Assembly (NCBI GenBank): GCA_029258725.1
Contig: JAPDKE010000013.1
Location: 62,001 to 126,000 of the forward strand
Length of the DNA: 64,000 nucleotides
Source of the DNA: a bacterium
GTDB taxonomy: Bacteria > Hydrothermota > UBA3072 > JAPDKE01
Reading direction: 5' to 3'
Positions 3,420-6,861 of the stretch are shown one piece after another. Each line of letters starts with the position of its first letter. Within the stretch, counting starts at the first letter, position 1. The notes under the pieces were generated by a model that did no database searches, was not told the DNA's origin, and saw nothing but the letters and a program-made list of their open reading frames with translations. The position numbers and the translations under genes were made by a program.

Positions 3420-4163
3420 ATGCCGCCACGCAGGTTTGGAAAGACATGGTGGAGCAAATTATGGATAGATGCACTGCTTGAACTGGGGAGGGTGTATGAG
3501 AACAGACTTCCCAGAGGAAGAAGGTATGCAAGGGAGGGGAGGGTTCGGATTATACTGATAGAGAATGGTACGGTTGTGGCGATGGTTAAGGGGGAGTATC
3601 GTCCATGGTATGAGGTGAGGATTTCTCTTAAAAAATTTGATGAAAAGATATGGAAAAAGGTGATGATGGAGATAAAAAAGAACAGAAGGATGTACTCCAT
3701 GCTGTTAAGGGGTGAGATGCCTCCGGATATAGATATGGTATTCCAGAGGTTTGGTGTTTCCCTTTTTCCCGGGAATGTAAATGAACTCATGACAAGATGT
3801 GATTGTCCTGACCATGCAAATCCATGCAAGCACATTGCTGCCACCCATTATATTCTTGCGGATGCCCTTGACCGGGATCCCTTTCTGCTGTTTGAGCTCA
3901 GAGGGATGAAGAGGGAGGTTTTTCTCGCACCTGAGAAGAAAAGGAAAAGGAGGAGGAGGGTTTGTTCTCCAGAAAGATTTCTCATGCAAAGGGGAAGATT
4001 TCCCGAACCTTCCTTTGATACCCTTCCCCACACTCCCTATACTCTTATACGCCTGCTTGGGCCGCCCCCCTTCTGGAAAGACAGGGAATATTTTATGGAA
4101 GTCTTCTATGAGATATACGGAAATGTACGGGAAGAGGTGAAGGAGATAGAGAGGGAAAAATAA
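3420..4163 (+). CDS. SWIM zinc-finger protein
   Basis: Protein of 247 residues with a SWIM zinc finger, CxC-x6-CxH: C127, C129, C136 and H138 (CDCPDHANPCKH). This is the canonical Zn-chelating pattern found beside bacterial SNF2 ATPases. The N-terminus begins 'PPRRFGKTWWSKLW', a common opening for these proteins. The C-terminal part carries a Lys/Arg-rich patch (KKRKRRRR). The ATG lies one base after the SNF2 stop, so the two are almost certainly co-translated partners. SWIM domains are thought to bind nucleic acid or protein partners; here the likely role is to direct the upstream ATPase. No catalytic domain is visible. Confidence 0.9.
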   Translation: MPPRRFGKTWWSKLWIDALLELGRVYENRLPRGRRYAREGRVRIILIENGTVVAMVKGEYRPWYEVRISLKKFDEKIWKKVMMEIKKNRRMYSMLLRGEMPPDIDMVFQRFGVSLFPGNVNELMTRCDCPDHANPCKHIAATHYILADALDRDPFLLFELRGMKREVFLAPEKKRKRRRRVCSPERFLMQRGRFPEPSFDTLPHTPYTLIRLLGPPPFWKDREYFMEVFYEIYGNVREEVKEIEREK

Positions 4164-4218: not shown

Positions 4219-4246
4219 TTGACAAACCAGATTTTTTTGTTATCTT
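4219..4246 (+). promoter_or_regulatory. sigma70-type promoter for TonB receptor
   Basis: TTGACA (4219-4224), a 16-bp spacer and TATCTT (4241-4246), upstream of the TonB-dependent receptor gene. Predicted transcription start is about 4253, inside the palindrome at 4252-4265. Confidence 0.75.
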
Positions 4247-4251
4247 CTGTA

Positions 4252-4265
4252 TTAGGTTAACCTAA
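4252..4265. promoter_or_regulatory. DtxR/MntR-type metal-repressor operator
   Basis: A perfect 14-bp palindrome, TTAGGTTAACCTAA, covers the predicted transcription start of the TonB receptor. It reproduces the half-sites of the DtxR/IdeR consensus (TTAGGTTAG-CTAACCTAA). Position and symmetry suggest repression by a metal-sensing DtxR-family regulator, so the receptor would be induced by iron (or manganese) scarcity. No regulator gene is in the window. Confidence 0.65.
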
Positions 4266-4297
4266 CTTTTTAAGGAAACCCAAAAAAGGAGGTGGAC

Positions 4298-6646
4298 ATG
4301 TTCTTGCTGGTTTTGGTTTCTGCTTCTGGGGTAATTGAGGGGAAGGTTGTTGATGCCAAGACGGGGGAGGCCCTCCCCTGGGTGAATGTGGTTGTAAAGG
4401 GCACGTCCTTCGGGACGGCAACAGGAAGTAACGGGGAGTTCATGATTGTCAACGTGCCACCCGGAACTTACAGGATTGTGGCATCCATCATAGGCTACAT
4501 TCCGGAGACAAAGGAGGTTGAACTTCTCCCTGAGGAAACGGTAAGGGTTAATTTTCACCTCAAGCAGACGATACTGGAACTTGGTGCTGTTGTGGTTACA
4601 GGCACAAGAACCCCAAGATTCATCAAGGATGTTCCCGTGAGAACCGAGGTCATAACCTTCCGGACCATAGAGGAAAAGGGAGCAAGAAACCTTTATGAAT
4701 CCCTTGCAAGACTTCCTGGTGTAAGGGTTGAAACCCAGTGTCAGTATTGTGGATTCACAATGGTGAGAATACATGGACTCGGTGCAGACCACACTCAGAT
4801 TCTCATTGATGGAGAGCCTGTTTATTCAGGACTTGCAGCCGTGTACGGACTGGAGCAGATTGCATCGGTCGGAATTGACCGGATAGAGGTTGTCAAGGGG
4901 GCAGGCTCGGCACTATACGGTTCAGGTGCAATTGCTGGAGCCATAAACATAATAACGAAAAGACCGGCAAAAAATGAAGGGACCATAGGGATAGAAATCG
5001 GAGAACATGAAACAAACAGGTTTTATCTGGTCTCATCCATAAAAGGTGAAAAGATGGGGGTGAGCTTCTGGGCAGAAAACCAAACTCAGGGTTTGATTGA
5101 TGAGACAGGGGATGGGGAAACCCCGGAGGAGGTGAAAAAACCGGATGGTCTCTCTGACAGGGTAAAGACCAACCTTGTGAACGCAGGATTCAGACTTATC
5201 AGCGAAAACCTCATTGGAGATGACAGGCTCACGCTTTCCGGAAAGACCCTCCATGAGCTGAGGCAGGGAGGCAGGCTCACCGATGACACCTATGAAAATC
5301 CTTTTACCGAATCTACGGAAAGGATTATAACTCACAGATATGAGCTCCTTTCCTCTTATAAAATGGCATTCTCCCATGGAGGCAAGTTGAACATAACCTT
5401 TGCAATGGCAAATCACAGGAGAAACGCAACCAACGACGCCTTCCTATGCGATTACATCTCCATCCATGGAGAACCCCCTCCTCTTGATGAGATGAGACCT
5501 TACATCGCAAAGGAAAAGACCCTTACATGGAACATGAACTATGTCCATCCATTGAAAACGCAACGGTTAATGCTTGGTCTTCAGTATTCTTATAACTACC
5601 TGAAGGAAAAAGGAAAGTATGTGGTGGTGGATGAAGAAGACGAGGCTTATGGAGAAACCTACACCTCAACATCAAAAAAGGAAGCAAGAGAAGCAGGAGT
5701 ATATGTTCAGGACGAGGTATCGGTGAGTGATAAAATAGAGATGGTTCTTGGATTGAGGTATGATATACATAAATCGGAAGACCAGTTCAGGGGTTCTGGA
5801 AAGGTTGCCCCATCTTTTGAGCCTGTAAAATATAACAGGACATCCATAAACCCGCGCCTTGCACTGAGATTATCAATCACTCCCTCTCTTTCCTTGAGAG
5901 GAAGTGCAGGGACGGGATTCAGGGTTCCCTATGGCTTCTCTGAAGACCTTCACCTGTGCAGCGGTTCTCCCAGGGTATGGAAGGGGGACGACCTGAAACC
6001 GGAAAGGTCGATAAGCCTCAGCCTCTCCATAGACTGCGAAAAAGAAAACTTCTCAGGAAATGTGAGCTTCTACCGGACATTCCTGAAGGATAAAATAGGC
6101 TTTGTTGAAGCAGGAGAGGAGGCAAGGAGTCTGGGATATACATACGAATGGAAAAACATAGAAGATGCGTATGTTCAGGGTATAGAGGTGGGGGGAAGTT
6201 TCGTCGTTTTCTCCTCCATCCTTTTTGATGTCTCCTTTACTCTTAACGATGGAAAATACAGAAATCCAAGAGAAGACTGGTCGGGAACCGGGTATGAGGA
6301 AGAAAGCAGGTATATTTCAAGGCTTCCCATGTACACGCTCAATGTAAGCACTGCTCTTTCTTATAGAAGCCTAAAGGTTTCTCTGGATGGAGCACTCACC
6401 GGTCCCATGTTTATCGATTACTATGAAAATGAAGAAACTCCCAGGAAGATAAAACGAACCGACCCCTACATACTCCTGGATGGAAAAATCTCATGGAGGC
6501 TCCACAGGAATCTCTTCCTTTACGCGGGTGGGAAAAATCTGACCGGCTACATCCAGCCTGAAAAACACACCGATGATGCTGCCTTCATATACGCTCCGCT
6601 CTATGGAAGGATTCTTTATGCAGGAGTAAAAGTCCATGTCGAGTAA
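4298..6646 (+). CDS. TonB-dependent outer-membrane receptor
   Basis: Outer-membrane active transporter of 782 residues. After a short signal sequence comes a carboxypeptidase-regulatory-like beta-sandwich (about residues 13-95, 'GKVVDAKTGEALPWVNV', 'NVPPGTYRI'). A plug domain (about 105-220, 'VVVTGTRTP', 'VRIHGLGADHTQILIDGEP', 'VVKGAGSALYG') and a long beta-barrel ending in an aromatic-rich strand follow. The start is ATG 4298 with a strong AAAGGAGG at 4285-4292; an in-frame GTG at 4292 lies within that ribosome site. The plug carries a CQYC pair, seen in some Bacteroidetes-type receptors. The upstream DtxR-like operator suggests an iron or other metal chelate substrate. Substrate identity is inference. 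It appears monocistronic. Confidence 0.93.
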   Translation: MFLLVLVSASGVIEGKVVDAKTGEALPWVNVVVKGTSFGTATGSNGEFMIVNVPPGTYRIVASIIGYIPETKEVELLPEETVRVNFHLKQTILELGAVVVTGTRTPRFIKDVPVRTEVITFRTIEEKGARNLYESLARLPGVRVETQCQYCGFTMVRIHGLGADHTQILIDGEPVYSGLAAVYGLEQIASVGIDRIEVVKGAGSALYGSGAIAGAINIITKRPAKNEGTIGIEIGEHETNRFYLVSSIKGEKMGVSFWAENQTQGLIDETGDGETPEEVKKPDGLSDRVKTNLVNAGFRLISENLIGDDRLTLSGKTLHELRQGGRLTDDTYENPFTESTERIITHRYELLSSYKMAFSHGGKLNITFAMANHRRNATNDAFLCDYISIHGEPPPLDEMRPYIAKEKTLTWNMNYVHPLKTQRLMLGLQYSYNYLKEKGKYVVVDEEDEAYGETYTSTSKKEAREAGVYVQDEVSVSDKIEMVLGLRYDIHKSEDQFRGSGKVAPSFEPVKYNRTSINPRLALRLSITPSLSLRGSAGTGFRVPYGFSEDLHLCSGSPRVWKGDDLKPERSISLSLSIDCEKENFSGNVSFYRTFLKDKIGFVEAGEEARSLGYTYEWKNIEDAYVQGIEVGGSFVVFSSILFDVSFTLNDGKYRNPREDWSGTGYEEESRYISRLPMYTLNVSTALSYRSLKVSLDGALTGPMFIDYYENEETPRKIKRTDPYILLDGKISWRLHRNLFLYAGGKNLTGYIQPEKHTDDAAFIYAPLYGRILYAGVKVHVE

Positions 6647-6706: not shown

Positions 6707-6780
6707 GCGCCTGTAGCTCAACAGGACAGAGCAGCGGATTTCTAATCCGCCGGTTGGGGGTTCGAGTCCCTCCAGGCGCG
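6707..6780 (+). tRNA. tRNA-Arg (anticodon TCT)
   Basis: Complete cloverleaf. Acceptor GCGCCTG (6707-6713) pairs with CAGGCGC (6773-6779), with discriminator G. The anticodon stem GCGGA/TCCGC encloses loop TTTCTAA with anticodon TCT, and the T-loop is GTTCGAGTC. CCA is not encoded. It decodes AGA/AGG, the dominant Arg codons in this window. Confidence 0.95.
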
Positions 6781-6786
6781 CGGCAT

Positions 6787-6861
6787 GGTGAGCGTAGCTC
6801 AACTGGTCAGAGCGCTGGACTGTGGCTCCAGAGGTTGGGGGTTCAAGTCCCCTCGCTCACC
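6787..6861 (+). tRNA. tRNA-His (anticodon GTG)
   Basis: Cloverleaf with the His-specific extra G(-1) at 6787 facing C73 at 6861. Acceptor GTGAGCG pairs with CGCTCAC, the anticodon stem CTGGA/TCCAG carries anticodon GTG, and the T-loop is GTTCAAGTC. CCA is not encoded. It follows the tRNA-Arg by 6 nt. Confidence 0.95.

Follow-up and report, generated by a model that had tools for sequence, protein, structure and literature searches.

A predicted DtxR-type operator at the start point of a TonB receptor gene and its recurrence, often in tandem, in the phylum

The receptor gene and its promoter

The stretch of DNA analysed here, termed the window, comprises 64,000 nucleotides of a Hydrothermota genome and carries a gene for a TonB-dependent receptor preceded by a compact promoter region (Table 1). 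The promoter combines TTGACA with TATCTT (4241-4246), and the TG one base 5′ of TATCTT makes it an extended -10 promoter. A preliminary description had placed a perfect palindrome, TTAGGTTAACCTAA, over the predicted +1 of this TTGACA-N16-TATCTT promoter, and its location is confirmed: since the palindrome starts 5 bp past the -10 hexamer, the predicted +1 lies inside it, 33 bp separating it from the receptor ATG. A second, imperfect 14-mer, TAAGGAAACCCAAA, which is absent from that description, follows downstream. Both of its half-sites are imperfect, and about 2 per 10,000 14-mers of the genome match the operator equally well. A shared operon with the upstream SNF2/SWIM genes was considered and rejected, as these genes, unrelated in function, stop at 4163 and leave 56 bp to the promoter.

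Table 1. Features of the receptor promoter region and gene (window positions)
Feature	Position	Strand	Remarks
-35 hexamer TTGACA	4219..4224	+	recurs 22-33 bp 5′ of the site in nearly all related promoters
Extended -10, TG-N-TATCTT, spacer 16	4238..4246	+	10/12 promoter matches, TG before second hexamer
Primary operator (predicted) TTAGGTTAACCTAA	4252..4265	.	perfect 14-bp palindrome over predicted +1; matches TTAGGNNNNCCTAA exactly
Secondary imperfect operator (predicted) TAAGGAAACCCAAA	4271..4284	.	19 bp start to start from primary; 8/10 specified bases
Ribosome-binding site AGGAGG	4287..4292	+	from sequence
TonB-dependent receptor	4298..6646	+	N-terminal CarbopepD_reg_2, Plug (PF07715), beta-barrel (PF00593); ORF opens at GTG 4292, likely start ATG 4298

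The receptor reaches no curated TonB subfamily cut-off for heme, siderophore, or B12 (best TIGR01785, 136 bits versus 317); its best scores come from heme/hemoglobin receptor models, yet these lie far under the cut-offs. It is putatively a "chelate" receptor, as the preliminary description put it. The protein begins with MFLLVLVSASGVIEGKV (window 4298-4330), an apparent signal sequence that is unusually short. A short signal sequence is also present in the orthologue of the related genome G001 (MFFYLLVVSS...), and one of normal length in that of G007. Two tRNA genes lie directly 3′ of the receptor gene (window 6707-6861), and an ORF starting at 6785 overlaps the second.

Recurrence within the genome

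The 2.11-Mb genome contains a single exact copy of the 14-mer, against an expectation of about 5e-5 to 0.007 copies under Markov models of order 1-4. TTAGG-N4-CCTAA is found twice in the whole genome (expected 0.03 to 2.8, depending on Markov order), and both copies are located at promoters, namely those of the window receptor and of a DUF6512-type membrane protein gene. The half-sites themselves are rare, with 13 copies of TTAGG and 14 of CCTAA in 102 kb. Allowing up to one mismatch yields nine places genome-wide, four of which fall into three promoters: the window receptor, the DUF6512-type gene (a pair, G000:C5:9075 and 9094), and dtxR-feoA-feoB (G000:C30:20099; TTAGAAAAGCCTAA, one mismatch). 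Coding sequence, or a cobalamin riboswitch 5′ of a different TonB receptor gene, accounts for the remaining five. TTGACA, an interval of 28-33 bp to the site, a ribosome-binding site, and the start codon constitute the layout common to the three promoters. The gene behind the tandem pair encodes a 172-aa membrane protein without a Pfam match of its own; an orthologue with 55% identity in G042 passes the DUF6512 cut-off. The cobalamin riboswitch (Rfam RF00174, 104 bits) maps to L012:1469-1633 on the minus strand (G000:C28) and L049:2406-2570. With a riboswitch at one receptor gene and an operator at another, two receptors of this genome have recognisable, different controls.

The DtxR-FeoA repressor

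The genome contains exactly one DtxR-family gene, located at L003:1498-2190. Its product carries PF01325 (HTH) and PF02742 (metal binding and dimerisation), both above cut-off, and is fused to a C-terminal FeoA domain (PF04023, residues 157-227). The gene runs 4 bases into the 5′ end of feoB, which places the two in one operon. Since the promoter of this dtxR-feoA-feoB operon carries the site, the sole DtxR protein has its operator in common with the receptor and membrane protein genes. The palindrome is almost certainly the docking site predicted for the single DtxR-type repressor of the genome. In the same operon region, a small protein encoded at L004:18793-19200, 3′ of feoB and of a gene for an outer-membrane protein, resembles by eye the dinitrogenase iron-molybdenum-cofactor family.

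By sequence, the best solved matches to the repressor are MntR proteins (alignment to 1on1 and others). The primary metal site of DtxR, which we take to consist of Met10, Cys102, Glu105, and His106, corresponds in the repressor to a DACVIEH motif that keeps the Cys, Glu, and His, and to Glu9 at the Met10 position. Asp8 and Glu99, presumably the manganese ligands of MntR at the positions of DtxR Met10 and Cys102, are both replaced, by Glu and Cys, respectively. Because these ligands are mixed, sequence does not settle which metal is sensed. Fe2+ is the most likely, given feoB in the operon and the Cys at the Cys102 position; the Glu at the Met10/Asp8 position leaves room for Mn2+.

Sites in related genomes

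The nearest relatives available for comparison belong to other families of the same class, within a phylum set of 147 genomes. In G008, sites precede dtxR-feoB, the DUF6512 orthologue, and a gene for an outer-membrane protein whose N-terminus resembles by eye the product of the gene adjoining feoB in the window's genome. In G007, they precede dtxR, feoAB, an ECF sigma gene, a DUF4198 gene, and, in tandem, the orthologue of the window receptor (50% identical over its length). G036 has a site at feoAB, G041 a tandem pair at dtxR-feoA-feoA-feoB, and the dtxR promoter of G001 carries TTAGGTGAACCTAA. The recurrence near metal genes that the preliminary description had set as a test beforehand is thus found both in the genome itself and at the dtxR, feoAB, and receptor genes of relatives, and the DtxR-family gene that it called for exists. 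The link between receptor and operator is not universal, as no operator is present within the 431 bp available 5′ of the G001 receptor orthologue (54% identical). G030 has no site at dtxR, and in DUF6512 orthologues other than those of G008 and G042 the operator is not seen immediately upstream.

In G042, an FmdE-like secreted protein and DUF6512 are encoded in one operon (L118:271-1494), preceded by a perfect tandem operator and followed further 3′ by a gene for an outer-membrane protein; together they possibly form an uncharacterised metal-uptake cassette. The ECF sigma gene of G007 (L055:1024-1548) has its DtxR-type operator upstream, and a metal-starvation sigma cascade below DtxR is possible there. 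Operator-like sequences also occur near CarbopepD_reg/TonB-receptor-type genes at L095:2128 (G009:C208; TTAGGAAAACCTAA) and L074:1373 (G004; TTAGTAAAACCTAA).

A further group of genomes (G002, G004, G005, and G006) has shorter DtxR/MntR-like genes with TTAGA-N4-TCTAA at the corresponding place in their promoters; the site of G003, TTAGGGATGTCTAA, is mixed. The recognition helix is VRAPSV-like in the TTAGG group and VSLPSVNYA-like in the TTAGA group. Across these few lineages, the parallel variation of half-site type and recognition helix is no more than suggestive.

A tandem arrangement with a 19-bp offset

Thirteen primary sites were chosen without tandem information. At an offset of +19, seven of the 13 are accompanied by a second site scoring 7/10 or better; none of the remaining 119 offsets tested gives more than one. 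The binomial tail for +19 is 5e-14, or about 6e-12 after correction for the number of offsets, with the qualification that sites within one genome are not fully independent. Searched with up to two mismatches, the 33-bp tandem pattern is found at nine places in the 147 genomes (four for a reversed control pattern). One of the nine lies in coding sequence and eight are promoters: those of the window receptor, the DUF6512-type gene, the G007 receptor, the G008 outer-membrane protein, G036 feoAB, G041 dtxR-feoA-feoA-feoB, the FmdE-like/DUF6512 operon of G042, and G133 dtxR-feoB. A clear +19 partner is absent at the genome's own dtxR promoter (6/10 at that position) and at G008 dtxR, G008 DUF6512, and G007 feoAB. 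At the same threshold, the interleaved 19-bp DtxR/IdeR operator yields two borderline matches in the 147 genomes, both in G007, and none in the window's own genome.

The operator is therefore a 14-bp site for a single predicted dimer with a weaker site 19 bp downstream, unlike the 19-bp DtxR box. The regulon is likewise of DtxR type on 14-bp sites, often in tandem, each of which would accommodate one dimer. A broader generalisation, which we favour with some reserve, is that the DtxR-FeoA-type repressor of this little-studied phylum normally acts through a side-by-side pair of 14-bp operators, each for one dimer, whose starts are 19 bp (about 1.8 helical turns) apart, unlike the interleaved box, and that the half-site has changed its fifth base between DtxR branches (TTAGG versus TTAGA) in step with residues of the recognition helix (at the DtxR Ser37 position, Arg/Lys/Ala versus Ser).

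Comparison with known systems

DtxR and IdeR of Actinobacteria, which bind a 19-bp operator (TTAGGTTAGSCTAACCTAA), resemble the present system in their TTAGG/CCTAA half-sites, 4-base spacer, and DtxR fold as well as in the placement of the operator over the promoter and in their iron-uptake targets (PMC7762939, PMC8464063). In contrast, two interleaved dimers are offset by 5 bp on the actinobacterial operator, whereas here the 14-mer is either solitary or repeated at 19 bp, and the targets include an outer-membrane TonB receptor. IdeR also binds the 14-bp sequence TTAGGNNNNCCTAA as one dimer (apparent KD about 78 nM), and it has been argued that the 14-mer rather than the 19-mer should define the site (PMC8464063). 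The window palindrome is an exact match to this consensus. The nuo promoter of Saccharopolyspora erythraea has an IdeR site of the same consensus with one dimer per site (PMC8464063), an occupancy that is predicted here. There, such a site is an exception confined to one promoter; here, it is the usual predicted operator throughout a regulon. Streptococcus mutans SloR is another DtxR-family repressor with several adjacent palindromes near the promoter, and its side-by-side operator arrays are bound cooperatively (PMC12096823). Its manganese-responsive SRE sites consist of AT-rich 6-6-6 repeats separated by 4 bp with, by that paper's description, a 22-bp period, as opposed to 5-4-5 TTAGG/CCTAA sites with a 19-bp period here. 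The MntR proteins of Bacillus subtilis and relatives, the closest solved relatives by sequence, differ from the present repressor in that the latter has Cys for Glu99, a C-terminal FeoA domain, and feoB in its operon. A text search of open-licence papers returned no paper on such a regulon in comparable lineages.

Proposed mechanism and alternatives

Very probably, the sole DtxR-FeoA repressor shuts off the TonB receptor gene through the palindrome. When metal (most likely Fe2+) is plentiful, a loaded dimer would occupy the 14-bp site beside the -10 hexamer and over the start point, and a second dimer, perhaps cooperatively, the weaker site 19 bp downstream. The bound dimers would block RNA polymerase, a step proposed by analogy with DtxR and IdeR, which repress by occluding the polymerase (PMC7762939). 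When metal is scarce, the repressor would be released and the receptor made, induced in parallel with the dtxR-feoA-feoB operon and the DUF6512-type membrane protein. The metal-dependent repression suggested in the preliminary description is supported as far as the DtxR-operator reading is concerned, the chelate remaining its conjectural part. Of its label "DtxR/MntR-like", half-sites and gene context favour the DtxR/IdeR (iron) part over the MntR part.

Control of the same operator by manganese, in the manner of MntR, is accordingly unlikely. The solved MntR structures closest to the repressor and Glu9 in place of MntR Asp8 speak for it; against it stand the DtxR-like Cys instead of Glu99, the TTAGG/CCTAA half-sites, the position of feoB in the operon of the repressor, the operator at feoAB in relatives, and the lack of a manganese transporter at any operator examined. 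The role of the second site is less secure. A single-dimer operator whose 19-bp partner is idle in the window, its 8/10 match being due to descent or chance, is a possibility of some weight, though the less probable one: both partner half-sites are imperfect and several promoters have no clear partner, but +19 is the sole over-represented offset, and in the 147 genomes the tandem pattern hits only nine places, one of which is the window promoter.

An inverted repeat of constant loop length within the predicted leader could, in principle, act as an RNA hairpin with a 5-bp stem and a 4-base loop. This was rejected on folding and is very improbable, since the leader folds no better than shuffled sequences (z 0.33), its minimum-energy fold does not contain the hairpin, and there is no terminator-like site, while the location at the start point, the recurrence in tandem at a fixed 19 bp, and the linkage to dtxR suit a DNA operator. 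That the palindrome stands beside the promoter by chance is scarcely credible. The sequence is short, and dinucleotide shuffles of the window average 2.45 matches at up to three mismatches, but the palindrome is exact and unique in the genome, is also present at the promoter of the DtxR operon and at the receptor orthologue of another family, and its recurrence at dtxR and feo promoters contradicts chance.

Implications

Beyond the preliminary description, the analysis adds the 19-bp tandem arrangement and a regulon that is conserved across families, and thereby extends a lone palindrome to a small, probably iron-responsive regulon in a lineage for which the set searched contains no close sequenced relative. 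This regulon unites DtxR-type half-sites with a side-by-side arrangement. Structural work on IdeR has left open what role single-dimer TTAGGNNNNCCTAA sites play (PMC8464063), and the promoters described here provide natural examples in which such a site is the standard operator. For the organism, the operator would single out the window receptor as metal-regulated among the nine TonB-receptor-type genes of the genome. It would also link metal uptake to DUF6512, an uncharacterised membrane protein, and to a family of outer-membrane proteins.
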